Assembly (NCBI GenBank): GCA_028687585.1
Contig: JAQTZV010000004.1
Location: forward strand, 1-64,000
Length of the DNA stretch: 64,000 bases
Source: Desulfuromonadaceae bacterium
Lineage (GTDB): Bacteria > Desulfobacterota > Desulfuromonadia > Geobacterales > Pseudopelobacteraceae
Reading direction: 5' to 3'
The notes under the pieces are model-generated. The model saw nothing but the letters and a program-made list of their open reading frames with translations, had not been told where the DNA came from and ran no database searches. The translations under genes and the position numbers were made by a program. This document shows positions 42,949-61,857 of this stretch, piece after piece; within the stretch, counting starts at the first letter, position 1, and every line of letters begins with the position of its first letter.

Positions 42949-43638
42949 ATGACTGAAATAGACAAAATTCCCTTTCTGCTGGTTGACGACCGGCCGGAAA
43001 ACCTGATTGCCCTCGAAAGTCTTCTTGAAGATATGAACCTCGATATTTTCAAGGCAACATCAGGGAACGAGGCGTTGAGCCTATCGCTGAAGCATGATTT
43101 TGCACTGGTTCTCATGGATGTTCGCATGCCGGATATGGACGGTTTTGAAACAGCCGAGATGATGCGGGTATACCCGAAAACCAGCCGCCTGCCGATCATA
43201 TTTGTCTCCGCAGTCATGAAAGACACGATGCATCAGTTCAAAGGGTATGAGAGCGGCGCGTTCGACTATCTGTTGAAGCCGATCGATCCGACTATCCTGC
43301 GGAGCAAGGTCAGGGTCTTTTGTGACCTGTTTCAACAGCGCCAAATGCTGGAGATGCATGGACAGCAGCTTGAAACGCTGGTCAGAGAGCGCACTGCCGA
43401 ACTGAGAGAGGCCAATGAGCAGTTGCACATTGAACTCACAGAGCGCAAGCGGGCAGAGGAGGCGCTTAACCGGCTCAACGATGAGCTTGAACAACGGGTC
43501 GGGGAGCGCACCAAAGAGCTGGAACGGAGAAATCATGAGCTTGAACAGATGAACAAGGCATTTGTCGGGAGGGAACTGAAGATGGTGGAGCTGAAGGGGC
43601 GGATCAGGGAATTGGAGGAACTGCAGAAAAACGCCTGA
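42949..43638 (+). CDS. Receiver protein with C-terminal coil tail (coil-tail protein 1)
   Basis: A 229-residue protein: receiver domain at 8-125 (FLLVDDRPENLIALESLL; phosphoacceptor Asp in LVLMDVRMPDMDGFE; YLLKPID), then a long coiled coil (QQLETLVRERTAELREANEQ) ending in EQMNKAFVGRELKMVELKGR. No DNA-binding or enzymatic output domain. Its Asp is probably phosphorylated by the hybrid kinase encoded 90 bp upstream. The C-terminal signature is shared with seven other proteins in the window. Preceded by a C/G hairpin and the RBS AAAGGAG. Confidence 0.88.
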   Translation: MTEIDKIPFLLVDDRPENLIALESLLEDMNLDIFKATSGNEALSLSLKHDFALVLMDVRMPDMDGFETAEMMRVYPKTSRLPIIFVSAVMKDTMHQFKGYESGAFDYLLKPIDPTILRSKVRVFCDLFQQRQMLEMHGQQLETLVRERTAELREANEQLHIELTERKRAEEALNRLNDELEQRVGERTKELERRNHELEQMNKAFVGRELKMVELKGRIRELEELQKNA

Positions 43639-43719
43639 CTGGCGTACAAACTCACGATGCTTCGAGTCACCTCGCCGCTTGCCGCAGTGGGGTACGCTTG
43701 CAGCAGAAAGGATTTCCAT

Positions 43720-44568
43720 ATGCGAAACTTAACCATAGGGGTCATTCGTTGCGCACTGCCTGCCCTGCTTGTTTTCGTCATGGGCACTCCTTCATTTGCC
43801 GCTCAGGGGAAAGTCTATACCCTTGCCGTGATCCCGTCGGCTCCGCCGGTTGCCCTGCACAAACAGTGGACCCCTTTTGTGGAACAGCTCTCCCGTGACA
43901 CCGGCCTTGCATTCAGGCTCATAATGTACGAACGGATGGCCGAATTTGAGCGGGATATCTGGAACGGCGTTCCCGACTTTATCTTTGCGTCGCCGATCCA
44001 GACGGTGGTGGCCCACGCGGAAAAAGGGTATGTGCCGCTGGTTCGCGGCGGCAAGGATATCGCCGTCGGTCTCTTCGTGCGCAAGGGCTCTCCCTACCGG
44101 AGTATTAAAGATCTGAACGGCAAAACAATTTCTTTTGTCGGCAACAAGAATCTCTGCAGCGTCTTTGTCCAGCATCTGCTGGGCGAACATAAGGACAAAG
44201 TTTCCTTCACCAGGGAATATGCCGGTTCAACCAGAAACGTGATCATTAACGTACTGCTGGGCAAGAGTGCCGCCGGAGCGGTATTCATTCCGGAACTGGC
44301 ACGGGAATCAGAAGATACCCGCTCGCAGCTTCGCGAGATCCTGGTGACGCCTGAAATAGCACCGCATCCGCTCAGTGCCCACCCGCGCGTGCCCCGGGCG
44401 GCACAAGAGGCGGTGAAAAAGGCAGCGCTTGCCATCGCGGCGACCGTTGACGGCGCGGAGTTGCTTAAAACTCTCAGGATGGCGGCTCCGGTCGCAGCAG
44501 ATTACGGACGGGATTACCGGTCACTGGAAGTGATCGACATCAAGGGGCTCACCAATTGGGGAGAATGA
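43720..44568 (+). CDS. PhnD-like periplasmic solute-binding protein (orphan)
   Basis: Started at the ATG at 43720 (GAAAGGATTTCC upstream); 282 residues. Signal peptide (CALPALLVFVMGTPSFAAQG), then VYTLAVIPSAPPVALHKQWTPF, the typical start of phosphonate/phosphite-type binding proteins, then PDFIFASPIQTVVAHAEKGY and DLNGKTISFVGNKN. The two-lobe PBP-II fold is likely; the ligand is unknown. It has no transporter partners and ends one base before the membrane sensor gene, so it probably presents its ligand to that sensor. Confidence 0.85.
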   Translation: MRNLTIGVIRCALPALLVFVMGTPSFAAQGKVYTLAVIPSAPPVALHKQWTPFVEQLSRDTGLAFRLIMYERMAEFERDIWNGVPDFIFASPIQTVVAHAEKGYVPLVRGGKDIAVGLFVRKGSPYRSIKDLNGKTISFVGNKNLCSVFVQHLLGEHKDKVSFTREYAGSTRNVIINVLLGKSAAGAVFIPELARESEDTRSQLREILVTPEIAPHPLSAHPRVPRAAQEAVKKAALAIAATVDGAELLKTLRMAAPVAADYGRDYRSLEVIDIKGLTNWGE

Positions 44569-44569
44569 C

Positions 44570-45853
44570 ATGGCGCTGCAGCCTCACAGACTGAATACCC
44601 GCATAATTTTGATCGTCTCATGTGTCCTGCTTGTCACCGGCGTAACATCCGGCTGGCTGACCGCCAGGAATCAGACGAACAGCCTCCTGGCAGGCATGCG
44701 CGCCAATTCGACGGTCATGGCCAGAAACTTTGCCGAAAGCTGCGCCCGCTATCTGCTGGTTCAGGATTATGCCGAGCTGGAAACCTTTCTCCTCAAATCG
44801 GCAGAGCTGGCCGACATCCGGCGCCTTCAGGTCTGTGAACCGGGCGGTGCTCTGATCTGGGATGTCGAACATAGCCCCGACAGGCCCCCTTCTGCAAAAA
44901 CGGGCATCGCCCGCCTCACTCCGCCATTATCCCGCACTGCAGAGATCACCACCGAAAACAACCAGCTGGTCATCTGGCAGCCGATCGTGGCGGGAAATAT
45001 GCTCGGCTGGCTCAGGGCCGACTTCAGCCTGACCGCCATCCACGAAGCGCAAGCAAGAACCTGGGAAAACAATCTCCTCCTCGCCATGGCCTGGGTCGTA
45101 TGCAGCGCGTTCCTGATAGTTCTGGTGCTGCGCCCTTTCGTGCGCTCGATCGCCCGACTGACCGCATTTTCCAAACAGCTCGACGAGCATAAGGGCGCGC
45201 AGATTTCAGTCGCCGGTCAACCGCTTGAAATCGTCGAACTGGGAGAATCCCTGAACGAGGCCTCCATAAAGTTGCTTTCGACGGAACGACAGATTCTTAA
45301 GGAACAGGAACGGCTGCGCAGAAGCGAAGAAAATTATCGGCGGCTGCTTGATACGATTCAGGAAGGTATCTGGGTTATCGATGCGGATGCGGTAACTACT
45401 TTTGTCAATCCGCGCATGGCCGAGATCCTGGGGTATACGACTGATGAAATGATCGGCAGGCATCTGTATTCGTTCATGGATGAACAGGGGAAACAGCGTG
45501 CCGATGACAGTATTGAACGACGCAAGCAGGGGATAAAGGAACAGCACGACTTCGAATTTATCAGAAAAAACGGCGAGCGGATTTATACAAGGCTCGAAAC
45601 CGGGCCGATATTCGATGAATCTGGACAGTATGCCGGATCAATCGCCGCCGTTGCCGACATTACCGAACGGAAGCAGGCCGAAGAGGAGATTCGACAACTT
45701 AACGAAGAGCTCGAACAGCGGGTGACGGAGCGGACAGCCGAGTTGGAGGTGAAGAATGCGGAGCTCTACAAGATGAACCGGCTGTTCGTCGGCAGGGAAC
45801 TGCGGATGGTGGAGCTGAAGGAGCGGATCAGGGAACTTGAAGGTGGGAGGTAA
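44570..45853 (+). CDS. Membrane PAS sensor with coil tail (coil-tail protein 2)
   Basis: A 427-residue protein: span 1 (IILIVSCVLLVTGVTSGWL), an extracytoplasmic segment of ~130 residues, span 2 (NLLLAMAWVVCSAFLIVLVL), HAMP-like linker, PAS at about 250-370 (IQEGIWVIDADAVTTFVNPR; GYTTDEMIGRHLYSFMD), coiled coil and the tail KMNRLFVGRELRMVELKERI. No kinase or cyclase domain follows the PAS, so it must signal through a partner. It starts one base after the PhnD-like gene; the two likely form a receptor pair. RBS GGGGAGAA. Confidence 0.88.
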   Translation: MALQPHRLNTRIILIVSCVLLVTGVTSGWLTARNQTNSLLAGMRANSTVMARNFAESCARYLLVQDYAELETFLLKSAELADIRRLQVCEPGGALIWDVEHSPDRPPSAKTGIARLTPPLSRTAEITTENNQLVIWQPIVAGNMLGWLRADFSLTAIHEAQARTWENNLLLAMAWVVCSAFLIVLVLRPFVRSIARLTAFSKQLDEHKGAQISVAGQPLEIVELGESLNEASIKLLSTERQILKEQERLRRSEENYRRLLDTIQEGIWVIDADAVTTFVNPRMAEILGYTTDEMIGRHLYSFMDEQGKQRADDSIERRKQGIKEQHDFEFIRKNGERIYTRLETGPIFDESGQYAGSIAAVADITERKQAEEEIRQLNEELEQRVTERTAELEVKNAELYKMNRLFVGRELRMVELKERIRELEGGR

Positions 45854-45860
45854 TGGGGTA

Positions 45861-47111
45861 ATGCCGACAAAACATGCTTCACATAGACACTCCTCAGGGA
45901 AAACGGGGATGGCGCCCGGGAGCGATAAATCGGAAATCGACGCCCTGAAGCAGGCGCAACAGGCATTGACCCGGGAGAAAGAATTCAGCCGCTGCCTGCT
46001 TGAGAGCATGGCTGACGGTGTGGTCGCCTGTGATGCGGACGGCATCCTGACGCTGTTTAATCGTTCTGCGCGGGAGTGGCACGGGCTTGATCCATTGCGG
46101 CTCCCCCCTGAAGAATGGGCTCGGCACTTCGACCTGTTCCGCGCCGACGGGATCACTCCGCTTCCGACGGATGAGGTGCCGCTTGCCCGTGCCTTCAGGG
46201 GGGAGATCGTCAGGGACGCGGGAATGGCGATCAAGGCGAAAGACCGGCCGATCCGGTTCATCCTCGCCAACGGCAGTGTGATACGGGACGAGGACGGCAA
46301 CAAACTCGGAGCGGTTGTTGTCATGCGCGACGTTACCGAGTTCAGACGTCTCGAGCTGGAACTCCGCACGGCGAACGAGGAGCTTGAACAGCGGGTGGAG
46401 GAGCGCACCGAGGAGTTGCGAAAGACGGCCGGAGATCTGAACGAAGCCCAGCGTATTGCTCATATAGGGAGTTGGGAACTGGATCTGCTTACAAATCGGC
46501 TCTTCTGGTCGGATGAGATCTATCGCATTTTCGAAATCAATCCGAATGAGTTCGGCGCTTCGTATGAGGCTTTTCTGCAGGCGATTCATCCCGATGACCG
46601 GGAGGCCGTCAACGCCGCATATACCAATGCAGTCAGAAACCGTGCCTCCTACTCCATTGAGCATCGCCTGCTGCTGGCCGGAGGCCGGATAAAGCATGTC
46701 CATGAACATTGTGAAACATTCTATGCGCATGACAAGCCGATCCGGTCGGCAGGAACCATTCAGGACATTACCGAGCGCAAGCGTACCGAAGAGGCATTGT
46801 ATCTTCAGGCGGAGGAGCTTGAAGAAGAGGTGACCGAGCGTCAGATGGCGCAGGAGAATCTTCAGGAAAAGGCGCTGCTGCTGGAAGAGGAGATCGAAAA
46901 GCACCAAAAAGCGCAGGAAGCGCTGGAACAGTTGAATGTGACACTTGAATTGCGTGTCAAGGAGCGCACGACTGAGCTGGAAGAGAAAATCGCGGAGCTG
47001 CACAGGATGAACAAGCTATTTGTTGGCCGGGAGCTGCGGATGGTGGAGCTGAAGGAGCGGATCAGGGAGCTGGAAAACGTATCCGAAAAAAGAAGTGATC
47101 AAAATGACTGA
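45861..47111 (+). CDS. Soluble double-PAS protein with coil tail (coil-tail protein 3)
   Basis: Started at the ATG at 45861, seven bases after the previous stop; a TTG at 45837 would overlap the previous gene. 416 residues: PAS 1 (MADGVVACDADGILTLFNRS), a coiled coil with the EQRVEERTEELRKT pattern, PAS 2 (RIAHIGSWELDLLTNRLFWS with YEAFLQAIHPDDRE), a long coiled coil (QEKALLLEEEIEKHQKAQEA), and the tail RMNKLFVGRELRMVELKERI. No membrane spans. Its C-terminal 100 residues closely resemble those of the protein at 49076, pointing to module exchange. Confidence 0.85.
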   Translation: MPTKHASHRHSSGKTGMAPGSDKSEIDALKQAQQALTREKEFSRCLLESMADGVVACDADGILTLFNRSAREWHGLDPLRLPPEEWARHFDLFRADGITPLPTDEVPLARAFRGEIVRDAGMAIKAKDRPIRFILANGSVIRDEDGNKLGAVVVMRDVTEFRRLELELRTANEELEQRVEERTEELRKTAGDLNEAQRIAHIGSWELDLLTNRLFWSDEIYRIFEINPNEFGASYEAFLQAIHPDDREAVNAAYTNAVRNRASYSIEHRLLLAGGRIKHVHEHCETFYAHDKPIRSAGTIQDITERKRTEEALYLQAEELEEEVTERQMAQENLQEKALLLEEEIEKHQKAQEALEQLNVTLELRVKERTTELEEKIAELHRMNKLFVGRELRMVELKERIRELENVSEKRSDQND

Positions 47112-49089
47112 CAGTAACGGGCTCGAAAAGCGCTCTTGCAGTGATAGCGAGGAACGGTACCGGCTGCTCATCCGGAAGATCCGGACCGCCATCGTGCTCC
47201 ATGACGCTCAGGGGCGCATCCTGGACAGCAACCCTATGGCACAGGAGCTGCTCGGGCTCTCTGCGGAACAGCTCGCAGGCCGAGCCCTGATCGACACGGA
47301 ATGGCATTTTCTGCGGGAAGACGGCTCCGTGTTGCCGGTCGCCGAATATCCGGCACACCTGGTGCTCTCCAGTCGGCAGCCGCTCAGGGACTTTGTGACG
47401 GGAATCAGCCGGCCGGACAGGGATGCAGTCATGTGGGTGCTGGTAAACGGCGAACCGGAGTATAACGATGCCGGAGAAATAACAATGGTCATCGTTTCCT
47501 TTGTGGACATCACCGAGCGCAAGCGGGTGGAGGAGGAGCTTCGGACCTCGGAGGCCAAGTATCGCATCGTGGCCGATAATACCTATGACTGGGAATTCTG
47601 GACGGACGCGAATGATCACTATGTGTATATCTCTCAATCCTGCCAGCGAATTACCGGTTTCCCTGCTGTGGCGTTTAAGGCGAATCCTGCTCTGTTGGAT
47701 TCGATTATTCATCCAGACGATTGGCAGAGCTACAGAAACCATTTAATGGAGACAAAAGCCGGACAATCGTTGGGCAGCGTTGAATTTCGCATCCTCGATA
47801 AAGACGGACGGGTCCGCTGGATCGAGCATTTCTGTCAACCAGTATTCGACGAGGCAGGAACATGGCTTGGCACACGCGGCAATAATCGCGAGGTTACGAA
47901 GCGGAAAGAGGCTGAACACCTCAAACAACTGACCACGTCAATCCTGGCTATTCTTAACGAGTCCACTGACTTGACTGCATCCATCAATCGTGTTCTGGAA
48001 ATCATTAAACAGGGAATCGAATTTGATGCCATCGGGATACGCCTGCAAAGCGGCGCAGACTTCCCCTATTTTGCATCTGCCGGTTTCCCGGATGATTTTC
48101 TGATCGCGGAGAACTCGTTGGTTGTCCCAGACAGGAAAGGTGGATTATGCAGGGATTGCGACGGCAACGTCTGTCTGGAATGCACCTGCGGCCTGGTTAT
48201 CTCCGGCAAGAGCGACCCGGCCAATCCTCTTTTCACCCCCGGCGGCAGCTGCTGGACCAACAATTCATTACCACTATTAGACCTTCCGCTCGATCAGGAC
48301 CCCCGGCTTAATCCAAGAAATCTCTGCATTCATAAAAACTTTTTTTCTGTTGCGCTGATACCCATCCGCGCGAATCACAAGATTATTGGGCTGTTACAAC
48401 TCAACGACCACAAAAAGGACCGTTTAAGCAGCGATATGGTCGCCTGTTTTGAAGATGTCTGCACAAGTATCGGTCTTTCTCTGATGAAAAAGCAGGCCGA
48501 AGAGGCGCTGAAGACCAGCGAAGCCCGCTTCCGGCGCCTGGCCGAGAATGCGAAGGACGTCATATTTCGCATGGCGCTGCCCGACGGCGTCTACGAGTAC
48601 ATCAGCCCCGCAGCGATGGAACAGTTCGGCCACGCGCCTGAGGAGTTTTATGCCGCTCCGGATCTGCTGCGTAAGCTCATCCACCCCGACTGGCATGCCT
48701 ATTTCGATACGGAATGGGAAAAACTGCTGCACGGAGAGATGCCCCCCGACTACGAGTACCAGATTGTCCATAAATCGGGCAAGGTCCGCTGGATAAACCA
48801 GCGCAATATCCTGGACCGGGATGAAGAGGACCGGATCGTCGCCATCGAGGGAATCGTCACCGACGTCACCGAAAGGAAACAAGTTGAGGAAGAGCTCCGC
48901 GAGCTTAATGCCGAACTCGAACATCGAGTGACGGAGCGGACAAAGGAACTGGAACGAAGGAATCATGAGCTGGAACAGATGAACAAGGCATTTGTCGGCC
49001 GTGAATTGAAGATGGTTGAGTTGAAGGAGCGGATCAGGGATCTGGAAAACAATCCCGAAAAAAGAGGTGATCAAAATGCCCGACAGTAA
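47104..49089 (+). CDS. PAS-PAS-GAF-PAS protein with coil tail (coil-tail protein 4)
   Basis: ATG at 47104 (AGAAGTGATCAAA before it) preferred over GTG at 47095; it overlaps the previous stop by 8 bp. 661 residues: PAS (RKIRTAIVLHDAQGRILDSN), PAS (YDWEFWTDANDHYVYISQSC), GAF-like region (DSIINRVLE-type start near STDLTASINRVLEIIKQGIE, with a Cys-rich CRDCDGNVCLECTCG stretch at about residues 350-365 that could bind a metal), PAS (DVIFRMALPDGVYEYISPAA), coiled coil and tail QMNKAFVGRELKMVELKERI. The first ~145 residues are nearly the same as those of the next gene. Confidence 0.86.
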   Translation: MTDSNGLEKRSCSDSEERYRLLIRKIRTAIVLHDAQGRILDSNPMAQELLGLSAEQLAGRALIDTEWHFLREDGSVLPVAEYPAHLVLSSRQPLRDFVTGISRPDRDAVMWVLVNGEPEYNDAGEITMVIVSFVDITERKRVEEELRTSEAKYRIVADNTYDWEFWTDANDHYVYISQSCQRITGFPAVAFKANPALLDSIIHPDDWQSYRNHLMETKAGQSLGSVEFRILDKDGRVRWIEHFCQPVFDEAGTWLGTRGNNREVTKRKEAEHLKQLTTSILAILNESTDLTASINRVLEIIKQGIEFDAIGIRLQSGADFPYFASAGFPDDFLIAENSLVVPDRKGGLCRDCDGNVCLECTCGLVISGKSDPANPLFTPGGSCWTNNSLPLLDLPLDQDPRLNPRNLCIHKNFFSVALIPIRANHKIIGLLQLNDHKKDRLSSDMVACFEDVCTSIGLSLMKKQAEEALKTSEARFRRLAENAKDVIFRMALPDGVYEYISPAAMEQFGHAPEEFYAAPDLLRKLIHPDWHAYFDTEWEKLLHGEMPPDYEYQIVHKSGKVRWINQRNILDRDEEDRIVAIEGIVTDVTERKQVEEELRELNAELEHRVTERTKELERRNHELEQMNKAFVGRELKMVELKERIRDLENNPEKRGDQNARQ

Positions 49090-50647
49090 CAGGCTCGAAG
49101 AGCGCTCTTGCAGTGATAGCGAGGAACGGTACCGGCTGCTCATCCGGAAGATCAGGACCGCCATCGTGCTCCATGACGCTCAGGGGCGCATCCTGGACAG
49201 CAACCCTATGGCACAGGAGCTGCTCGGGCTCTCTGCGGAACAGCTCGCAGGCCGAGCCCTGATCGACCCGGAATGGCATTTCCTGCGGGAAGACGGTTCC
49301 GTGTTGCCGGTCGCCGAATATCCGGCACACCTGGTGCTCTCCAGCAGGCAGCCGCTCAGAGACTTTGTGGCGGGAATCAGCCGTCCGGACAGGGACGACG
49401 TCATGTGGGTGCTGGTAAACGGCGAACCGGAATATGCGGATGATGGAGAGATAGCGCAGGTTATCGTTTCATTTGTGGACATCACCGGGCGCAGGCGCAT
49501 GGAAGATGCCCTGTTTTTCGTTGCGCAACGCGGCTGGCTGGTCGGTGCAGAAAACTTTTTCGATGCTCTTGCGCAGTATCTTGGCAAAACCTTCGATGTG
49601 GATTACGTCGTCATCGACAGGATAGATGAAGACCCGGCCGTAGCAGAGACGGTTGCATTATATGCCAAAGGCGCAATCGTACCGAACATGCGCTACACAC
49701 TCAAGGGGACGCCATGCGAAAATGTTATGGGGCGGCGGCTCTGCGTGTATCCGCAGGGAGTTCAGCAACTGTTTCCTGAAGACACATTGCTGGCCGAAAT
49801 GGGAGTGGATAGTTATATCGGCATCCCGCTGTGGGATTCCTCAGGGCGTCCGATAGGATTGATCGCCCTCATGGACAGCAAGCCGCTTCATGACGCCGCA
49901 TCCACCACCCAACTGCTGCAGCTGGTAGCGACTCGTGCTGCAGCCGAACTGGCCCGCGAGCGAAGCGACCGCATTCTGCGGACGCGCGAGCATGAATTCC
50001 GCACCCTGGCGGAGAGTTTACCGGACAACATCATCCGCTACGATCGGGAAGGACGGACCATGTACGTCAACCCAGTGATCGAAAAAACATTGGGCGCTGC
50101 CGCCGCAGATATGATCGGCAAGCAGGTCCGGGAAATCTATCTCGATGGGAGTTACGAGGTCTATGCACAACTCCTGGACGCGACCCTCGCCAGCGGTGTG
50201 AACGGCGAAATCGAGTTTATACTGCCCGTCACGAGCAAGGAACCGATTGTTCATCAGATACGCATGATTGCCGAGCGCGACGATCATGGCGAAGTGACCG
50301 GCGTACTCGCAATTGGTCGCGACATTACCGAGCGCAGGCGTGCCGAGGAAACGATGCAACTCCAAGCTGTCGAGCTTGAAGAAGAGGCGGTAGAACGCCG
50401 GATGGCGCAGGAGAATCTTCAGGAAAAGGCGCTGCTGCTGGAAGAGGAGATCGAAAAACGTCAAAAAGCGCAGGAAGAACTGGAACGGTTGAATGAGCGA
50501 CTTGAACACCGTGTCAAGGAGCGCACGACTGAGTTGGAGCAGAAGAACACGGAACTGCACAAGATGAACCGGCTGTTTGTCGGTCGCGAATTGAAGATGA
50601 TTGAACTGAAGGCACGGATCAAGGAGCTGGAAACGAAAATCCCATAA
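49076..50647 (+). CDS. PAS-GAF-PAS protein with coil tail (coil-tail protein 5)
   Basis: ATG at 49076 with AGAGGTGATCAAA; overlaps the previous gene by 14 bp. 523 residues: PAS almost identical to that at the start of the protein at 47104, a GAF domain (NFFDALAQYLGKTFDVDYVV; VDSYIGIPLWDSSGRPIGLI), a PAS (FRTLAESLPDNIIRYDREGR), coiled coil (QEKALLLEEEIEKRQKAQEE), and tail KMNRLFVGRELKMIELKARI. Its GAF type (SYIGIPL) can bind a small ligand or act as a scaffold. No output domain. The next gene is a PBP-fused hybrid kinase. Confidence 0.86.
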   Translation: MPDSNRLEERSCSDSEERYRLLIRKIRTAIVLHDAQGRILDSNPMAQELLGLSAEQLAGRALIDPEWHFLREDGSVLPVAEYPAHLVLSSRQPLRDFVAGISRPDRDDVMWVLVNGEPEYADDGEIAQVIVSFVDITGRRRMEDALFFVAQRGWLVGAENFFDALAQYLGKTFDVDYVVIDRIDEDPAVAETVALYAKGAIVPNMRYTLKGTPCENVMGRRLCVYPQGVQQLFPEDTLLAEMGVDSYIGIPLWDSSGRPIGLIALMDSKPLHDAASTTQLLQLVATRAAAELARERSDRILRTREHEFRTLAESLPDNIIRYDREGRTMYVNPVIEKTLGAAAADMIGKQVREIYLDGSYEVYAQLLDATLASGVNGEIEFILPVTSKEPIVHQIRMIAERDDHGEVTGVLAIGRDITERRRAEETMQLQAVELEEEAVERRMAQENLQEKALLLEEEIEKRQKAQEELERLNERLEHRVKERTTELEQKNTELHKMNRLFVGRELKMIELKARIKELETKIP

Positions 50648-50708
50648 TACAGATGCATGACTCCAACGAGCTGAGTCAATCAAAAATTGACCGCAGAGGT
50701 GACGACAG

Positions 50709-53336
50709 ATGAGAGCCTTCAACAAAAACTTCATCCCATTGACAATAGCCAAATCCAAACCGCTCTTTGTCTTTGTCGTAACGATCGCCATGCTTCTTGC
50801 GTCAGCCCCGGTGGTCGCCCGTGCCGGGTCTCCGGTTCATGGGCGCGACAACGTCCTCGTCCTCCACTCTTACAGCCCGGACTACACGTGGACGCGTTCG
50901 CAGCAGAACGGCATCGACGCCGTCTTTGAGCCGCTTGCCGCCGAGTACGCCGTGCGCATTGAGTACCTGGACGCGGTACACCACCCGGCGCTGCTGAAAG
51001 GGCCGCTCGTCCTCGACCTCCTCCGTGCCAAGTTTGCGGATCAGCGCTTCCGGGTGGTGCTGACGTCGGACAACGCCGCGTTCGACTTCGCCCGCGAGCA
51101 CCGCAGCGAGCTCTTTCCGGGCGTGCCGATCGTGTTCATGGGTGTGAACGGGTACGAGGAGTCGATGCGCGCCGAGGGGGGCATCACCGGGGTGGCCGAG
51201 GACCCCGACATGCCCGGCACGCAGAAGCTGCTGCTGCAGCTTGCGCCGCTGACGAAGCGCATCGTCTTCCCCGGGATGGCGGACGACCCGAGCTATCGCG
51301 CCAACCGCGCCACGGCCGCCAAGAGCCTGACGGCGCTCCCCCCGCAGGTCACGGCTGAGTTCCCCGAGTATCCCGACGTGGACGCGGCCCTCGCGGCCCT
51401 CCGGACGCTCCCGAACGATTCGGCGATAGTCGTCATGGCCAACATGCATACGAAGGGGGGCGAGGGGATCAGCAGCCAGCGTGTCGTCGAGCTCGTCTCG
51501 GCAGCCGCGCCGGTTCCCGTCTTCACAAACTGGGACTTCGCGGTCGGCCAGGGCGCCGTGGGGGGGAGCGTCATCAGCGGTGTCGAGCAGGGGCGCCTGG
51601 CGGCTGAGATGGCGGTGCGGATCCTTCGCGGTGAGCGCCCGGAGTCCATACCGGTGCATCGCGGGGCGGGGAAGACCTTCCTCTTCGACTACCGGCAGCT
51701 TGCCCGGTTCGGGATTCCGGCATCGCTGCTGCCTCCGAAAAGCACCGTCATCAACCAGCCTCCGGTACAGCAGTTGCCGGTGTGGGTCACCTACTCCACG
51801 GCTCTTGTTATCTTCTTCATGACCATAATCGTTGTCATCTTGTACCGGCATCGGAAGAACCTCCAGGAACTGGTCAAGGAACGCACGATCCAGCTGGAGG
51901 CGGCCAAGGACCAGGCGGAGAGAGCCAACCGTGCCAAAAGCATCTTCCTGGCCAACATGAGCCATGAACTGCGCACACCTCTGAATGCAGTGCTGGGGTT
52001 CTCACAGGTGATGAAGAACTCGCGGGATGTCACGGTGGAGCAGATGCAGAGCCTGAACATCATCACCCGCAGCGGAGAACACCTGTTGCACCTGATCAAC
52101 AACGTGCTGGACATTTCCAAGATTGAAGCCGGCCGGACGGGACTGGAAGAGTCGCCTCTGGATCTGCATCAGATGGTGCAGGAGGTCAAGTCGTTGATGT
52201 ACGTGCGGGCAAAAGAGAGAGGGCTGGAATTCACGCTGGAGCAGGCCGCAGACCTCGTGCGACATGTCGCCGTCGATGGGGGGAAGCTGCGTCAGGTGCT
52301 GATCAACCTGGTCGAAAACGCCATAAAGTATACGCCTAGCGGCGGTGTCGTCCTTCGGGCCATGCCGATCAAACAGGAGAATTCCGGGCTGTCGCGGGTG
52401 CGGTTCGAGGTTGAGGACACCGGTCCCGGCATCCGGCCGGAAGAACGGGAACGGATATTCCATCCGTTCGTGCAGTTGGGCGAACAGTTGACCGCCGGGG
52501 CCGGAACCGGCCTCGGACTCGCCATCTCCCGGCAGTATGTGGAGATCATGGGGGGGAGGATCGATGTTACGGACGGGGGGGAGGGGAGAGGCTCGCTCTT
52601 TTATTTCGAGATACCGGTAACTCTGCTCCCGTCGGGGGAAATTGCCGCAGCGCCGCGTCGCGGCCGCGTCCTCGGGCTGGCAGACGGAGAACCGCGCCGG
52701 CGTATCCTTATCACCGAAGACCAGCCGGATAATCGTCTGCTGCTCCGGACTCTGCTTGAGCCGCTCGGGTTCGATCTCCGGGATGCGGAGAACGGACGGG
52801 AGGCGGTTGCCATCTGCGCTGAGTGGTGTCCCGACCTGGTCTTCATGGACATCCGGATGCCGGTCATGGACGGGCTGGAAGCGACCCGTCGCATCAAGTC
52901 AGCAGATGCCGGCGCCCGTGCGAAGATTGTCGCCGTCACCGCCCACGCCCTGGAGGAGGAGCAGCGCGAGATCCTGGCGGCAGGGTGCGACGATTTCATT
53001 CGCAAACCCTATGAATATGCCGATATCCTCGATGCGTTGACAAAAAACATCGGCGCACGTTTTGTCTACGAGGATGAGCCGGAGACCGTTCCCATTGCAG
53101 TGCAATTGGATGCGGCGGCCCTGGCCGATCTGCCGCAAGAGCTTCTGAACGAGCTGGAGCAGGCGCTTAGCCGGATCGATGTCGAGGCGGTCGGGCGCGC
53201 GATCAAAGAGATCCGCGCTCATGATTCCGCTTTGGCGGATGCATTGGCGGTAGAAGCACGGGATCTTCAATTCGGCCGGATATTGCGGTTGGTGAGAGGC
53301 GAGGTAATTACTCCGCACACTGCAAAATCTTTTTAA
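50709..53336 (+). CDS. Hybrid histidine kinase with ABC-type substrate-binding sensor
   Basis: An 875-residue sensor: signal peptide (FVVTIAMLLASAPVVARA), an extracytoplasmic PF04392-like substrate-binding domain at about 40-340 (VLVLHSYSPDYTWTRSQQNG; FTNWDFAVGQGAVGG), span (VTYSTALVIFFMTIIVVILY), HisKA with His ~419 (NMSHELRTPLNAVLGF), ATPase (DTGPGIRPEE; GTGLGLAIS), and a receiver with Asp ~713 (FMDIRMPVMDGLEATRR). A C-terminal helical extension follows but lacks the Hpt histidine. The sensor part is visibly richer in G+C and codon-biased compared with the kinase part, suggesting a mosaic origin. RBS AGAGGTGA. Confidence 0.92.
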   Translation: MRAFNKNFIPLTIAKSKPLFVFVVTIAMLLASAPVVARAGSPVHGRDNVLVLHSYSPDYTWTRSQQNGIDAVFEPLAAEYAVRIEYLDAVHHPALLKGPLVLDLLRAKFADQRFRVVLTSDNAAFDFAREHRSELFPGVPIVFMGVNGYEESMRAEGGITGVAEDPDMPGTQKLLLQLAPLTKRIVFPGMADDPSYRANRATAAKSLTALPPQVTAEFPEYPDVDAALAALRTLPNDSAIVVMANMHTKGGEGISSQRVVELVSAAAPVPVFTNWDFAVGQGAVGGSVISGVEQGRLAAEMAVRILRGERPESIPVHRGAGKTFLFDYRQLARFGIPASLLPPKSTVINQPPVQQLPVWVTYSTALVIFFMTIIVVILYRHRKNLQELVKERTIQLEAAKDQAERANRAKSIFLANMSHELRTPLNAVLGFSQVMKNSRDVTVEQMQSLNIITRSGEHLLHLINNVLDISKIEAGRTGLEESPLDLHQMVQEVKSLMYVRAKERGLEFTLEQAADLVRHVAVDGGKLRQVLINLVENAIKYTPSGGVVLRAMPIKQENSGLSRVRFEVEDTGPGIRPEERERIFHPFVQLGEQLTAGAGTGLGLAISRQYVEIMGGRIDVTDGGEGRGSLFYFEIPVTLLPSGEIAAAPRRGRVLGLADGEPRRRILITEDQPDNRLLLRTLLEPLGFDLRDAENGREAVAICAEWCPDLVFMDIRMPVMDGLEATRRIKSADAGARAKIVAVTAHALEEEQREILAAGCDDFIRKPYEYADILDALTKNIGARFVYEDEPETVPIAVQLDAAALADLPQELLNELEQALSRIDVEAVGRAIKEIRAHDSALADALAVEARDLQFGRILRLVRGEVITPHTAKSF

Positions 53337-53340
53337 TTTA

Positions 53341-53477
53341 ACAGGGATGAAGGACCCTCTGGGGCCTAAAGGTATACAGGGGATAACGGCAATAAAAAAG
53401 ATATAACCTTTTTGAGGTCAATACCAATTCTTATGGTTTTTAATTGGTTTAATCCCCTTCATCCCTTTTATCCCTGT
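53341..53477. repeat. Inverted-repeat element with ACAGGGATGAAGG arms
   Basis: ACAGGGATGAAGG (53341-53353) and the inverted CCCCTTCATCCC plus TTATCCCTGT (53454-53477) bound about 100 bp. The left part also contains the 21-bp repeat shared with 42828. Confidence 0.7.
53352..53372. repeat. 21-bp direct repeat, copy 2
   Basis: Identical to 42828-42848; here in the gap after the PBP-fused kinase gene, inside the inverted-repeat element. Confidence 0.8.
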
Positions 53478-53542
53478 AAAAATGCCTTTTGGTTTTTGTA
53501 GTTCGTTACGCGCACAGCAAAAACAGGCTCGGAGGACGAAAC

Positions 53543-55120
53543 ATGAACGAAGAAACGACTGACAGGCACTCCGGCCGGATACTGGTGGTGGACGATACCA
53601 CCGCCAATCTCCAGCTCTTGACAAAGCTGCTGACCGGGCACGGCTATGCCGTGTATCCGGCCTCGGATGGCGGATTGGCCCTGGAGTTCGTCCGAACCAC
53701 ACTTCCGGATCTCATCCTGCTCGACATCCGGATGCCGGGGATGGACGGCTTCGAGGTCTGCCGACGGCTCAAGGAGGATGCGAGGACTCGTGCTGTTCCG
53801 GTCATCTTCATCAGCATCCTGGAAGACGAGCGCGACAAGGTACAAGGCTTTCGGGCCGGCGCCGTGGACTACATCACCAAGCCGTTCCAACCGGAGGAGA
53901 TCCTGGCTCGCATTCAAACCCACCTGCGGTTGCGGGAATTGACCGAGCGGCTGGAACAGAAGGTCGCGGAGCGAACCAAAGCGCTGGAGAGCATGAACAT
54001 GGCACTCGAAGAGGAAATACGGGAACGTCGGCGCGCCGAGGAGTCGCAGCGCCGCTTGAACCGGGAGTTGCGGGCCATAAGCAACTGTAATCAGGTGCTG
54101 GTGCGGGCCGAGGACGAACAGAGCCTGCTCGGCGAGATCTGCCGTATTGTCTGCGATGAGGCCGGCTACCGCATGGCTTTTGTGGGGTATGCCGAAAATG
54201 ACGAGGGAAAAACAATCAGACCGGTATCTTGGGCAGGGGTTGAGGATGGCTATCTCTCAACCGCAAACTTAACCTGGGGCGATACGGAGCGTGGCCGAGG
54301 CCCGAGCGGGATATCGATTCGGAACGGCACGAGTTCCTGCATACAGGACTATGCCAGTGATCCCCAAGTCGCCATCTGGCGGGAGAATGCGTTACAGAGG
54401 GGGTATCGCTCGTCCATCTCGCTCCCGCTCAAGAACGAAAAAGCTGAAGCCTTCGCCACTCTCTCCATCTATTCCTCGGAGGCAAATACCTTCACCCCGG
54501 ACGAAATCCGGCTCCTGGAGGAGCTGGCGGGCGATATCACCTTTGGTATCCAGGCCCTGCGCAACCGCAGGGCCCGCAGGGAGTCCGAGCGGAGTGTCAC
54601 GCTCCTCAGTTTCGCCCTGAACAACGTGCGCGAGTCCGCCTTTCTGATCGACGAACAGGCCCGCTTTCATTACGTGAATGAAGAGTCGTGCCGGATGCTG
54701 GGGTACAGCCGCGATGAACTGCTCACCCTCAGCGTGACCGATGTGGACCCCGATTTTTCATTGGAGCGCTGGCCCGCCCATTGGGCCGAGTTGAAAAGCC
54801 GTCATTCGCTCACCTTTGAATCACACCACAAGACACGGGACGGGCGGTTTTTCCCGGTCGAGCTCAGCGCCAACTATCTGGAGTATGACGGTCAGGGTTA
54901 TAATCTGGCGCTGGCGCGCGACATCACTGATCGCAAACGGGCCGAGGAGGAACTCCGGTTACTCAATGCAGAGCTGGAACAGCGGGTGATTCAGCGGACT
55001 GCCGAACTGGAAGCCAAGAACACGGATCTGCAAAAGATGAACAAGGTCTTTGTCGGTCGGGAGCTGAAGATGGTGGAGTTGAAGGAACGGATCAGGGAAC
55101 TGGAGGAAAAGCCGGCATGA
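53543..55120 (+). CDS. Receiver-GAF-PAS protein with coil tail (coil-tail protein 6)
   Basis: Started at the ATG at 53543 with GGAGGACGAAAC; 525 residues. Receiver at 10-130 (ILVVDDTTANLQLLTKLL; Asp in ILLDIRMPGMDGFEVC; YITKPFQ), a coiled coil, GAF-like domain (DEQSLLGEICRIVCDEAGYR; GYRSSISLPLKNE), PAS (FALNNVRESAFLIDEQARFH; GYSRDELLTLSVTDVDPD), coiled coil and tail KMNKVFVGRELKMVELKERI. It can integrate phosphorylation by a kinase with its own ligand sensing. No output domain. The likely donor kinase is the one encoded upstream. Confidence 0.88.
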   Translation: MNEETTDRHSGRILVVDDTTANLQLLTKLLTGHGYAVYPASDGGLALEFVRTTLPDLILLDIRMPGMDGFEVCRRLKEDARTRAVPVIFISILEDERDKVQGFRAGAVDYITKPFQPEEILARIQTHLRLRELTERLEQKVAERTKALESMNMALEEEIRERRRAEESQRRLNRELRAISNCNQVLVRAEDEQSLLGEICRIVCDEAGYRMAFVGYAENDEGKTIRPVSWAGVEDGYLSTANLTWGDTERGRGPSGISIRNGTSSCIQDYASDPQVAIWRENALQRGYRSSISLPLKNEKAEAFATLSIYSSEANTFTPDEIRLLEELAGDITFGIQALRNRRARRESERSVTLLSFALNNVRESAFLIDEQARFHYVNEESCRMLGYSRDELLTLSVTDVDPDFSLERWPAHWAELKSRHSLTFESHHKTRDGRFFPVELSANYLEYDGQGYNLALARDITDRKRAEEELRLLNAELEQRVIQRTAELEAKNTDLQKMNKVFVGRELKMVELKERIRELEEKPA

Positions 55121-55169
55121 TAGACATGACAGCCGTTTGACTTATGAGGCCCTTGAAAGGAGGTTCGAT

Positions 55170-55808: not shown

Positions 55809-56529
55809 GAAAGAGCGACAGCAAGATAATCCGAAGCAGGATTGGCAAAAGGCGGATGCCCGTATTCTGGGACAGTTACTCGTAGCGCAAAACATCTTGT
55901 TTGTCTTGCATGACGAAGCACGGATCGCGGAGTATTTTTCTCAAGCCCTCAGTAGCGTACCTGGCGTAATTTCATGTTTTGTATGCCTGGGAAATCTGAC
56001 GGCTCCGCCCCGATTTGCACAAGAAGTTTGCAGCGGTTGTACTGCTCTGCGAAAAAATGAATACGGATCGTTGCCCATGCCCGACAATTTCTCGTGCGGA
56101 TTAGCGGCAAAACAGGGGATGCGGGCAATACCGCTTCAGACAAATGAACATGCCTTCGGTTTGTTTATTTTTCAAACGGACTCGACAACAGCTTTTGAAC
56201 CATATTGGCCCTTTCTAAGCAATCTGGCTAACTATGTAGCACTTACTCTCGAAACCAGGATTCAGAAGCGCTCTCTGGAGAAGTCTCGCGATGAGCTGGA
56301 AATGAGGGTGAAGGAACGAACGGAGGAATTATGGCGGATGAACACCGAGCTCGAACAGCGGGTAAAACAGCGGACAGCCGAACTGGAAGAGAGGAATGCG
56401 GAGTTGCATAAGATGAACCGGCTCTTTGTGGGGCGGGAATTGCGGATGGTGGAGCTGAAGGAGAAGATCCGGGAGCTGGAGGGAAAATCTCTGACAACTA
56501 ACTACGCAGTGGATCCGGATGATTATTGA
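55801..56529 (+). CDS. GAF-like protein with coil tail (coil-tail protein 7)
   Basis: A 242-residue protein: N-terminal GAF-like segment (LLVAQNILFVLHDEARIAEY; later GMRAIPLQTNEHAFGLFIFQ) with a Cys pair CSGC that may hold a metal or cofactor, then a double coiled coil (DELEMRVKERTEELWRMNTE), and tail KMNRLFVGRELRMVELKEKI, followed by a 14-residue extension (SLTTNYAVDPDDY). The two ERTxEL repeats show that the linker itself has been duplicated. Overlaps both neighbours: the MEDS gene (8 bp) and the binding-protein gene (11 bp). Confidence 0.82.
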   Translation: MREKERQQDNPKQDWQKADARILGQLLVAQNILFVLHDEARIAEYFSQALSSVPGVISCFVCLGNLTAPPRFAQEVCSGCTALRKNEYGSLPMPDNFSCGLAAKQGMRAIPLQTNEHAFGLFIFQTDSTTAFEPYWPFLSNLANYVALTLETRIQKRSLEKSRDELEMRVKERTEELWRMNTELEQRVKQRTAELEERNAELHKMNRLFVGRELRMVELKEKIRELEGKSLTTNYAVDPDDY

Positions 56530-57658
56530 GATCAGGAGAGTGACATTGAAAAACAAGCCGTTCTTGACAGGGATAATAGTCGGGATCGCCGCCGCACTGC
56601 TGTACAACCTGGCGGTTGCGCAGGATTCATTCGTTGCCGAGGCGAAGCGCTACACCGCCCTCGTTTCCAGGCACAATCCTCCCTGGGACGGGCCAACCAG
56701 CGGGCCGCCCGCCCAACGGGGCAAGTCGGTCATTTATGTCTCCTCCGGCCAGGAAAACGGCGGGGCGCGCGGAGTCGGTCAGGGCGCTGCAGAGGCGGCA
56801 AAGGTCATCGGCTGGGATTTCGACCTGATTGATGGTCAAGGCACGGCGTCAGGCAGAAGGAATGCTTTGCTGCAGGCGGTCAGTCTCAAGCCGGATGGCA
56901 TCATACTCGGGACTATCGATGCCGTGGAGCAGGCGGATGTGATCAGGGAGATAGCGTCAAAGGGGATCAAGATCGTGGGGTGGCATGCCCTGGGGAAGCC
57001 GGGCCCTGACCGTGATCACTCGATCTTCACCAATCTTGCCACTGAACCGAAAGATGTCGGCAAAGCCGCCGCGATGTATGCCGTGGCAGACTCCAATGGC
57101 ACGGCGGGAGTGATCCTCTTCAGCGATTCCATCTACGCAATCGCCAACGTCAAGATAAACGCCATACTCGACGTTTTTCGCACATGCGCTGGATGCAGTG
57201 TGCTAAGTGTTGAAAATATCCATCTGAAGGATATCCCGGCAACCATGCCGCAACGTACCGCATGGCTGTTGCAGCGCTATGGCAAAAAATGGACGTATAC
57301 CATAGCGGTCAATGATCTCTGGATTGATGCCATGCCGCCTACCTTTATTGCCGCCGCAATTCCCGGCAACGGTTATCCAAGGAGCATATCCGCCGGAGAT
57401 GGCAGTGTGTCGGCGTTCGAGCGGATTCGCAAGAACCGTTACCAGTTCGGGACGGTCGCCGAACCACTCCGCCTTCATGGCTGGCAGGCCATCGATGAAC
57501 TCAACCGCGCCTTTGCCGGGCAGAAGGATAGCGGCTATTCGGCCCCGGTTCACCTGGTGACACCCGCCAATATCAAATTCGACGGCGGCCGGAACAACGA
57601 GTACGACCCGGATAACGGTTACCGGGACAGATACAGGAAAATATGGGGAGTGAAATAA
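56519..57658 (+). CDS. Sugar-type periplasmic binding protein (Peripla_BP_4, orphan)
   Basis: A 379-residue exported protein: signal/anchor (LTGIIVGIAAALLYNLAVAQ), then VIYVSSGQENGGARGVGQGA, DGIILGTIDAVEQADVIREI, IKIVGWHALGKPGP and FERIRKNRYQFGTVAEP, the pattern of sugar (ribose/LacI-like) binding proteins. No ABC permease is near; the next gene, 6 bp on, is a membrane hybrid kinase, so this is probably its periplasmic co-receptor. ATG at 56519 overlaps the previous gene; GTG or TTG at 56540-56546 behind AGGAGAG is an alternative start. Confidence 0.83.
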   Translation: MIIEIRRVTLKNKPFLTGIIVGIAAALLYNLAVAQDSFVAEAKRYTALVSRHNPPWDGPTSGPPAQRGKSVIYVSSGQENGGARGVGQGAAEAAKVIGWDFDLIDGQGTASGRRNALLQAVSLKPDGIILGTIDAVEQADVIREIASKGIKIVGWHALGKPGPDRDHSIFTNLATEPKDVGKAAAMYAVADSNGTAGVILFSDSIYAIANVKINAILDVFRTCAGCSVLSVENIHLKDIPATMPQRTAWLLQRYGKKWTYTIAVNDLWIDAMPPTFIAAAIPGNGYPRSISAGDGSVSAFERIRKNRYQFGTVAEPLRLHGWQAIDELNRAFAGQKDSGYSAPVHLVTPANIKFDGGRNNEYDPDNGYRDRYRKIWGVK

Positions 57659-57664
57659 ACTGCC

Positions 57665-60541
<2,877 letters not shown>

Positions 60542-60565
60542 ATGATTGCTCAAGAAAACCAACTA

Positions 60566-60838
60566 CTACAAACGGTCGCCAATCTCATCATAAACACGAC
60601 TGCAGTGTTTGATGGCAAACACGATTACCTCGGCACCGCGAATTGCGTACACTACGCGCCAATCACCCACCCGCAATTTCCAGTATCCGGCCAGGGTGCC
60701 GCGCAACGGCTTGCCATACAGAGTTGGTTCGCTTGTCAGGCGGGTATCAATGGCGTTTCTTATCCGTTCGCGGATAGCTTTGGCAATGTCAGAGGCATCA
60801 TCCTTAACCGATGGATGGAATATAACGGCAAAATTCAT
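60566..60838 (-). CDS. RelE/ParE-type toxin
   Basis: A 90-residue protein with the RelE superfamily pattern: AVIFHPSVKDDASDIAKAI at the start, then PTLYGKPLRGTLAGYWKLRVGDWRVVYAI and a final beta-strand VIVFAIKHCSRVYDEI. These toxins cleave mRNA on the ribosome or block gyrase. The start overlaps the stop of the antitoxin gene by one base. It lies on the strand opposite to all surrounding signalling genes, which marks the pair as a separate, probably mobile, unit. Confidence 0.87.
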   Translation of the reverse strand: MNFAVIFHPSVKDDASDIAKAIRERIRNAIDTRLTSEPTLYGKPLRGTLAGYWKLRVGDWRVVYAIRGAEVIVFAIKHCSRVYDEIGDRL

Positions 60839-61065
60839 CAGCCGAAAACCTGGTCGGCAGTCAGGGCGGCAGCGTGGTTAAATCCGGCGGCACGTTTGTC
60901 GGCAACCTTCGCCAAGGCTATGTCCTCGCGCAGTTCCAGTGATTCCAGCAAGAGATCATGTGCAACCGATGACAATGAAGCGTGATCGCGGGCGGCAATT
61001 TCGGCAATAGCTCCATACAGGGACTTTTCACAGACAACATTGATGCGCGGATTAGTTGAAGGCAT
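60838..61065 (-). CDS. Antitoxin partner of the RelE-type toxin
   Basis: A 75-residue protein upstream of and overlapping the toxin gene: PRINVVCEKSLYGAIAEIAA, then LSSVAHDLLLESLELREDI and an acid/alanine-rich tail. The N-terminal part suits a ribbon-helix-helix DNA-binding fold with autoregulation of the pair; the tail would wrap the toxin. RBS AAGGAGACC precedes the ATG. Confidence 0.8.
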   Translation of the reverse strand: MPSTNPRINVVCEKSLYGAIAEIAARDHASLSSVAHDLLLESLELREDIALAKVADKRAAGFNHAAALTADQVFG

Positions 61066-61197
61066 GATGGTCTCCTTATTTTTTTGCCAAGTGTGTCATA
61101 AGTGTGTCGCCGATAAAAAAGAAAACAGGTGGCCGAAAATATATTTTCGCGTTACCGGTGGGAAACAAGAACAAGCCTGATAAGGGAGAATATATTT

Positions 61198-61857
61198 ATG
61201 AATAACCGGGGCACCATACTAGTTGTAGATGATACAGCCGAATCACTGCGGGTACTGACCGGGATTCTTCAGCCGGAAGGATACACGGTCAGACCTGCCA
61301 ATAGCGGAATGCTTGCATTGGCATCAATTGCCGCGCAACCGCCCGACCTGATCCTTCTTGATATCCGTATGCCCGATCTTGACGGTTTCGAGGTCTGCCG
61401 CCGTCTGAAGGGCGCGGAGGCCACCCGGAACATACCGGTCATCTTCCAAAGCGCTGCCACCGACCTGGCCGACCGCCTGGAGGGTTTCCGCCTGGGCGCC
61501 GTGGATTACGTCACCAAACCGTTCCAGCGCGAGGAGCTTCTGGCGCGGGTGAGAACCCATCTGGAACTCGCTTTTTTGCGCGGAAATCTGGAGGTAGTCG
61601 TTAAGGAACGGACCGAGCAACTGGAATCTGAAATCGCAGAGCGTAAACGGGCCGAAGATGAACTGCGCGCAATGAGCGAGGAACTGGAAAAGCGTGTAGA
61701 GCAGCGCACGGTCGAACTGGCGGCCAGGAACGCCGACCTGGAGAAGATGATCAAGGTGTTTGTCGGCCGGGAGCTGAAGATGGTGGAGCTGAAGGAGCGG
61801 ATCAGAGAGCTGGAGAAACAATATCTTCGTAAGAAAACAGAAATATCCCAGGCATAA
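61198..61857 (+). CDS. Receiver protein with coil tail (coil-tail protein 8)
   Basis: Started at the ATG at 61198 behind AAGGGAGAA; 219 residues. Receiver at 5-125 (ILVVDDTAESLRVLTGIL; Asp in ILLDIRMPDLDGFEVC; YVTKPFQREEL), then coiled coil (VVKERTEQLESEIAERKRAE) and tail KMIKVFVGRELKMVELKERI, ending RKKTEISQA. Its domain plan equals that of the protein at 42949, but the receivers are quite different in sequence. Separated from the kinase at 57665 by the toxin-antitoxin pair; likely once adjacent to it. Confidence 0.88.
   Translation: MNNRGTILVVDDTAESLRVLTGILQPEGYTVRPANSGMLALASIAAQPPDLILLDIRMPDLDGFEVCRRLKGAEATRNIPVIFQSAATDLADRLEGFRLGAVDYVTKPFQREELLARVRTHLELAFLRGNLEVVVKERTEQLESEIAERKRAEDELRAMSEELEKRVEQRTVELAARNADLEKMIKVFVGRELKMVELKERIRELEKQYLRKKTEISQA

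Follow-up and report, generated by a model that had tools for sequence, protein, structure and literature searches.

In the chemoreceptors that work with CheA and CheW, many output-less receptors share one conserved cytoplasmic tip and act on one kinase. In the RetS-GacS pair one sensor alters another kinase through contact with its DHp domain, RetS itself being kinase-like, and TorT/TorS is a three-component system with a periplasmic binding protein. PAS, GAF, Cache and receiver proteins without a visible output are also common in prokaryotic genomes, and their targets are often obscure. Here we describe proteins of this kind in a 64,000-nucleotide window (positions 1 to 64,000, forward strand, of contig JAQTZV010000004.1, GenBank assembly GCA_028687585.1) from a Desulfuromonadaceae bacterium. 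Eight sensor or receiver proteins in the window end in one near-invariant segment, hereafter the tail, which probably docks on a second conserved segment, NILED, in a kinase encoded outside the window.

The arrangement resembles the chemoreceptors in having many interchangeable sensors, a common conserved segment and one kinase, with no sign of kinship; however, the tail proteins have no MCP signaling domain, and the kinases are of the HisKA type with NILED, not CheA. In contrast to RetS, the tail proteins contain no kinase part, and what they share is a short segment (RetS, GacS and their co-complex are, by title, among our fold-search matches). As in TorT/TorS, binding-protein genes lie beside the sensors, whereas here sensor and kinase are separate chains, proposed to be joined by a dedicated helix pair.

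The signaling helix (S-helix) was described by Anantharaman, Balaji and Aravind in 2006; according to the portion of that paper available to us, it carries an ERT signature with Arg at 'd', almost always sits between two signaling domains, and is expanded in genomes that include Geobacter (PMC1592074). The coil of the tail likewise has the ERT signature with Arg at 'd' and follows PAS, GAF or REC domains; here, however, the coil ends the protein, and a conserved core stands where a catalytic domain would be expected. That portion of PMC1592074 mentions neither the tail core nor NILED, and neither the strings of the two segments nor any description of them was found in the open-licence literature. 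The S-helix coil ahead of the tail core is already known.

Eight sensor proteins with a common tail

An initial annotation of the window had claimed that eight products with unrelated inputs share a near-invariant C-terminal segment and that none of them has an output domain, and both claims hold. The eight open reading frames (ORFs), which it started at 42949, 44570, 45861, 47104, 49076, 53543, 55801 and 61198, were confirmed; all end in the tail, and a six-frame motif scan found no ninth copy in the window. Five of the genes have an in-frame start codon upstream of the start first given (Table 1). In all eight ORFs the core, FVGREL[KR]M[VI]ELK, follows a coil and is followed by 10–22 residues up to the C-terminus, the profile match stopping 0–12 residues short of that end. 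An alignment of the last 50 or so residues of the eight proteins contains 21 invariant columns, including FVGREL.M.ELK. Pfam places REC in the products at 42949, 53489 (there with GAF and PAS) and 61129, and PAS in those at 44570, 45837, 47095 and 49067, two of which also have GAF; the product at 55801 is without any Pfam match. Among the Pfam matches of the eight proteins there is no output domain, no HisKA and no MCP signaling domain. In the whole genome (5,465,263 bases in 60 contigs), the strong matches of a profile search are exactly these eight genes, and the next-best ones cover the coil half or less only.

Over 19 core codons of the eight genes, the mean proportion of synonymous differences (pS) is 0.53 and that of nonsynonymous differences (pN) 0.06, compared with a mean pN of 0.22 in the adjoining coil. 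Recent duplication, which the annotation had named as a possible other source of the conservation, is ruled out as the cause of the likeness by the difference at about half of the synonymous core sites. Because pS is high and pN low in the core relative to the pN of the coil, the core is judged to be maintained by selection.

The tail also matches no named domain, as the annotation had supposed. There is no Pfam match over it in the eight proteins, and no NCBIfam model for the core was found in them (among the best 25 matches in the case of three REC proteins and one PAS protein), the matches reaching the region being coil parts of other families' models. Searching the PDB with the tail profile gave 15 weak matches up to E 10 and no convincing relative; most cover the coil half or short helices, and the sole core-spanning one is a viral coil (E 0.31).

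In a set of 160 tails below 80% identity, with the invariant Arg taken as position 0, the heptad core occupies −24, −17, −10, −7, −3, 4, 7, 11 and 14, the Arg residues at −21 and 0 occupy 'd' places, and extra hydrophobic positions outside the heptad core lie at −4, −2, 2 and 5; the columns of Arg/Glu at 0/1, fixed by the anchor, and those of the pattern REL[RK]M[VI][EA]LK, by which part of the set was found, are inflated. The coil ahead of the core carries the ERT signature (Arg at −21 in 72%, Thr at −20 in 76%, register 'd'/'e'), and by its sequence the first half of the tail appears to be the S-helix of Anantharaman and co-workers. A PAS end motif lies upstream in 84 of 227 unique tails, 46, 67 or 88 residues from the Arg in 66 of these, all in a single heptad phase, and 35, 63 or 91 residues from it in 13. 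In an AlphaFold2 model of the 229-residue REC-tail protein, residues 114–228 form a single continuous helix.

A second segment in the kinases near tail genes

Kinases near tail genes carry in their signaling helix a second segment, [QR]xALxN[IL][LVM]EDL, with a consensus of about LExxQxALLNILEDLxEExxELE (NILED). ALLNILEDL was first read in the shortest of the kinases encoded immediately after a tail gene (L146, 270 residues; L207, 320; L211, 379), which have no Pfam matches beyond HisKA and HATPase and carry NILED in their short N-terminus; L211 has five copies at a spacing of 21 residues. Among the loci then sampled, 61 of 176 non-redundant kinases (78,098 residues) have the pattern ahead of DHp, against a background of 18 occurrences in 614,920 residues of other proteins. 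It is present in 12 of 15 tail-linked and one of 24 unlinked kinases of a Patescibacteria kinase tree (p 1.4e-6). With no domain in between, the phospho-acceptor His lies a whole number of heptads after the NILED Asn: 49 of the 50 distances of up to 75 residues take one of the values 28, 35, 42, 49, 56 and 63, and 20 of 21 clusters below 60% identity keep to the rule. The NILED profile has no PDB match up to E 10. The NILED and tail cores are both more conserved than the surrounding coil, with near-invariant polar residues (Arg/Glu in the tail, Asn/Asp in NILED), and in two AlphaFold2 single-chain models, which argue neither for nor against docking, each segment lies within one long helix.

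Nine NILED proteins were missed by our kinase model, which was built from one sequence and misses HisKA_2, HisKA_3 and weak HisKA kinases: one has HisKA_2, two HisKA_3, three a weak HisKA with HATPase, two SpoIIE and one PAS only. HisKA_2 and HisKA_3 kinases and SpoIIE phosphatases with NILED adjoin tail genes. Twenty further NILED regions hold 21 NILED ORFs, 17 of which match the kinase model, and their segments are 41–85% identical to the nearest profile row. The NILED ORF of L225 is cut by the contig end, with the H-box present, and L234 encodes a 724-residue NILED protein with an HD-GYP-like motif (by pattern only), the gene of which overlaps a tail gene. Two proteins (L219:1053-2942 and L224:3841-5133) carry both NILED and a C-terminal tail in one chain and would fit as relays in a chain.

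Co-occurrence of tail and NILED in genomes

With thresholds of E 1e-5 for the tail and 1e-3 for NILED, the two segments occur in the same genomes far beyond chance. Among 191 genomes of a Patescibacteria class, the tail occurs in 29, NILED in 27 and both in 26 (4.1 by chance; Fisher p 1e-27). The phylum of the window's own genome gives 42, 31 and 26 of 297 (4.4 by chance; p 1e-21), and the archaeal phylum of G084 gives 15, 12 and 11 of 294 (0.6 by chance; p 6e-16). Because these p values are partly circular, the counts were also made in held-out sets, namely genomes from which no sequence had been sampled before the NILED profile was made. Here tail, NILED and both were found in six, six and six of 150 Patescibacteria (p 7e-11), in 23, 17 and 12 of 278 genomes of the own phylum (p 2e-11), and in 14, 11 and 10 of 293 archaea (p 1e-14). 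HisKA presence, found among the matches listed in 155 of the 191 Patescibacteria genomes, gives only p 0.012 against the tail. One NILED match per genome is typical (26 of 27 in Patescibacteria, 25 of 31 in the own phylum, nine of 12 in the archaea), and in some co-occurring genomes (G273, G187) tail and NILED lie on different contigs.

Kinases are also the commonest neighbors of tail genes, and periplasmic binding proteins recur too. Counting complete neighbors on the same strand at most 200 bases away, other tail genes being skipped and loci that repeat earlier contigs left out, and considering the best 25 families, HATPase_c was found in 20 of 55 downstream and nine of 53 upstream neighbors and HisKA in 18 of 55 and seven of 53; these kinase counts are slightly low, since three neighbors omitted for length or because they were listed on the other side (two of 55 upstream, one of 56 downstream) are kinase-like by motif. 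In 30 loci, HisKA is present in 27 of 28 tail-bearing genomes, four of which have a single HisKA compared with 8, 3, 2 and 1 tails. Of 86 tails, 33 have a HisKA no more than 6 kb away, where 4.3 would be expected; tail and HisKA share a strand in 31 of these cases, and the kinase is the downstream gene in 24. In the Patescibacteria tree of 39 kinases, 11 of the 15 tail-linked ones fall within one branch of 13, and the tree shows five label changes compared with 12.1 in shuffles (none of 500 as low), with unlinked kinases that were drawn from the top of the HisKA match list and may favor one kinase type.

The tail also occurs in genomes of 0.5–1.9 Mb, of which 20 regions were mapped; the linked genes there include a kinase and often a single receiver, and an MCP motif was seen in none of the regions. 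A role of the tail specific to chemotaxis is unlikely, given its presence in small genomes of Patescibacteria and archaea without an MCP motif in those 20 regions. In G160 a tail gene upstream of its kinase is seemingly split in two frames (L157:4088-4674). Some Patescibacteria cassettes (L139:2905-4123, L143:4555-7050, L144:7244-7840) encode proteins of about 200 residues between tail gene and kinase; one of five scanned has a weak V4R match, and L201 has V4R fused after the tail. These proteins may have a part in the system as an additional partner.

In the window's own genome, which has eight tails and one NILED kinase, the sole NILED match at E 1e-3 lies outside the window (C3:80383-80481, E 6e-14), in a 531-residue kinase (Table 1). 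Its gene overlaps that of a 133-residue single receiver, and a 716-residue receiver-kinase hybrid is next. The AlphaFold2 model of the kinase has a mean predicted local distance difference test score of 77, an alpha/beta N-terminal part and a helix (residues 225–310) that bears both NILED and H293; a fold search finds its catalytic part like solved kinases. Kinases with NILED also occur in regions from G003, G009, G011, G013, G022, G042 and G052. Near the gene lie a 961-residue protein of the nitrogenase component 1 type (C3 83889-86774, minus strand; L058:3890-6775) and a B12-binding/URO-D pair (C3 75821-77520; L057:13822-15521), and genes of sizes like those of this pair recur beside the NILED kinase in relatives.

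Distribution of the tail

At E 1e-3 the tail profile matches in 23 of 58 genomes (own included), some matches being to the coil only. In several relatives true tails are again C-terminal and clustered on a single contig, with hybrid kinases and MCP-like genes nearby. In a collection of 84,980 species genomes the scan gave at least 476 relatives, the best 80 of which, in 74 loci, were taken forward; by record title they include Geobacteraceae, Nitrospirae, Bacteroidota, Ignavibacteriae, Treponema, Methanoperedens, Woesearchaeota and many Patescibacteria. In the own phylum the 42 tail genomes fall in 30 of 198 genera.

The 74 loci contain 132 tail ORFs (some loci overlap, and a few genes are counted twice), every one of which ends at most 35 residues past the tail; in none does the coil sit between two signaling domains, as the S-helix almost always does. 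For 84 tail proteins (of 85 selected, at most two per locus, complete ORFs from 62 loci, again without loci that repeat earlier contigs, one over-long protein being omitted), Pfam inputs are PAS, HAMP, GAF, Cache, REC, MASE3, MEDS, PocR, TPR and others, and neither kinase, cyclase or helix-turn-helix domains nor HisKA or MCP are among the best 25 of their 55 families. This C-terminal position on output-less proteins across many lineages agrees with the annotation's idea of a specific device with interchangeable inputs. An occurrence only at C-termini, which it proposed to check, is true of the close class (132 of 132) and fails in the wider superfamily: in 20 more distant own-phylum regions, picked mostly for large frames, 16 of 21 tails are C-terminal (at most 33 residues after) and five are internal. 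Three of these five, from one genus, precede a V4R-type end of about 194 residues (L201 by Pfam; L202 and L204 are nearly alike), and two precede a PocR-HisKA hybrid kinase. The tail is absent from two sets of 136 and 43 kinase ORFs. The two hybrids just named are PocR-HisKA-REC-REC-Hpt proteins with a tail-like segment inside (L196:3728-8188 and L197:2397-6035, near the N-terminus in L197), which by their sequences appear to be a natural fusion of tail and kinase.

A proposed two-part connector and its alternatives

We propose that tail and NILED are probably the halves of a two-part connector, in which tail dimers would dock on the NILED helix and many sensors would drive one kinase in trans. 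What the analysis shows is the two segments themselves, their joint presence in genomes, the linkage of the genes, the heptad phase and the many-to-one numbers; docking, bundle geometry and the direction of the signal are what we infer from them. A sensory domain such as PAS, GAF, Cache or REC would drive a parallel S-helix coil that ends in the tail core and has no catalytic domain. The tail would be the sending half, and NILED, which in many kinases lies within what would be a continuous helix into DHp, the receiving half. Sensors would dimerize via their S-helices, and their tails would pack on the NILED stretch of the kinase dimer. Because each segment has a heptad core, extra hydrophobic positions and near-invariant polar residues, the tail and NILED helices probably form a four-helix bundle. 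By rotating or bending the joint bundle, the sensor would shift the kinase coil in register with the phospho-acceptor His and in this way set kinase activity. All eight tail proteins of the window would thereby signal to the 531-residue kinase, and the receivers on three of the eight could admit phosphorylation input from the cluster's hybrid kinases, that at 39058..42858 being a possible phospho-donor for the REC-tail proteins.

We lean slightly toward a broader picture as well, an undescribed plug-and-socket common to bacteria and archaea that serves effectors of more than one type (HisKA, HisKA_2 and HisKA_3 kinases, SpoIIE phosphatases and perhaps HD-GYP enzymes), can be repeated on one kinase to take several inputs or chained via relays, and lets one kinase per genome integrate many sensors that are physically separate. 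If true, the connector would give a testable, sequence-only rule wiring output-less sensors to a named kinase, from Geobacter to Patescibacteria and Methanoperedens, and an interchangeable part for sensor building.

Several points weigh against the two-part connector. NILED was not detected in 23 tail genomes (three of 29, 16 of 42 and four of 15 in the three groups), and seven NILED genomes (one, five and one) have no tail. The genomes are kin to each other, and the p values ignore shared ancestry; the circularity of the full-set values comes from the definition of NILED in kinases near tail genes, and the held-out genomes could include contigs of the 74-locus tail collection, but the NILED segments of the 20 further regions have no more than 85% identity to any row of the profile. 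Three of the 15 tail-linked tree kinases have no NILED pattern. Since the plain ERT coils of NILED-free kinases are also in phase (12 of 12), the phasing shows an in-phase coil only; it places NILED in the signaling coil and is no proof of docking. A further 36 Asn-His distances, from 77 to 551, have no common phase, the additional copies of L211 aside; in some of these cases (L156, L163) a PAS domain intervenes. In the window's own genome, the NILED kinase lies 17.8 kb past the last tail gene and is not adjacent to it.

Tail genes run together (a tail gene lies directly downstream of another in 30 of 132 cases), L219 and L224 carry both segments in one chain, and binding-protein genes, and in some Patescibacteria the genes for proteins of about 200 residues, recur alongside. 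These observations would also suit a tail that is a homotypic or mixed oligomerizing cap, the NILED kinase being reached via a third protein or by array formation. We consider this unlikely, since of the features tested NILED alone tracks the tail closely in three groups and HisKA (in one group) does not, and NILED kinases without a Pfam sensor domain directly follow tail genes. That tail and NILED are ordinary coiled-coil motifs hitch-hiking in mobile signaling clusters, with no contact between them, would accord with a patchy spread and a clustering that suit gene transfer; it is rather improbable, given that both cores are conserved above the surrounding coil and that co-occurrence persists across different contigs.

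The initial annotation expected a common partner, perhaps the cluster's hybrid kinases, CheV or a protein encoded elsewhere, and proposed Hpt for the same comparison. In kind, the last of its three suggestions stands, the NILED kinase being one partner encoded outside the window. The hybrids, CheV and Hpt are the nearest signaling genes, hybrid kinases recur by class A clusters, several of which also have MCP-like genes next to them, but we regard them as very improbable partners. All three hybrids are without the tail, as the annotation stated, and without NILED, the genome's only match to which is outside the window; moreover, the tail occurs in genomes of 0.5–1.9 Mb, where the 20 mapped regions show a kinase and no MCP motif. 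Least credible is the reading in which the tail derives from an H-box helix by degeneration and serves receiver or ATPase domains as a decoy: hhalign does align VGRELR with MSHELR in the same register (GRELR/SHELR), but with a probability of 0.5% over eight columns, below the score of a plain coil control, and derivation from the HisKA H-box is thus unsupported.

Features of the cluster

Table 1. Coordinates of the tail genes, their neighbors and the NILED kinase (window positions, except for the last row)
Feature	Position	Strand	Evidence
Hybrid kinase 4HB_MCP-GAF-HisKA-HATPase-REC3, no tail, no NILED	39058..42858	+	
REC + signaling-helix coil + tail, 229 residues	42949..43638	+	Pfam, ORF, motif
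Tail of 42949 protein	43489..43635	+	profile E 1.2e-26
Phosphonate-type periplasmic binding protein	43657..44568	+	
PAS protein without output + tail, 427 residues	44570..45853	+	Pfam, ORF, motif
Tail of 44570 protein	45713..45850	+	profile E 3.7e-27
Double-PAS protein + tail, 424 residues from first start codon (initially 45861)	45837..47111	+	
Tail of 45837 protein	46947..47108	+	profile E 1.8e-27
Multi-PAS protein, weak GAF, + tail, 664 residues (initially 47104)	47095..49089	+	
Tail of 47095 protein	48919..49077	+	profile E 5.2e-29
PAS-GAF-PAS protein + tail, 526 residues (initially 49076)	49067..50647	+	
Tail of 49067 protein	50504..50644	+	profile E 1.9e-27
Hybrid kinase ABC_sub_bind-HisKA-HATPase-REC, no tail, no NILED	50709..53336	+	
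REC-GAF-PAS protein + tail, 543 residues (initially 53543)	53489..55120	+	
Tail of 53489 protein	54977..55120	+	profile E 9.9e-29
N-terminal part without Pfam family + tail, 242 residues	55801..56529	+	
Tail of 55801 protein	56353..56514	+	profile E 3.8e-29
Peripla_BP_4 binding protein	56519..57658	+	
Hybrid kinase dCache-PAS-HisKA-HATPase-REC, no tail, no NILED	57665..60541	+	
REC + coil + tail, 242 residues (initially 61198)	61129..61857	+	
Tail of 61129 protein	61687..61845	+	profile E 4.3e-27
NILED kinase, 531 residues	C3:79645-81240 (L057:17646-19241)		HisKA E 7e-22, HATPase_c E 2e-21

The ABC_sub_bind match is the own sensor part of the second hybrid kinase (50709-53336), and the cluster also has separate binding proteins. 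A stand-alone MEDS-domain protein is encoded at 55137-55808, between two tail genes, and a 90-residue ORF on the minus strand (60566-60838) encodes what we take, by its look, to be a RelE/ParE-type toxin.

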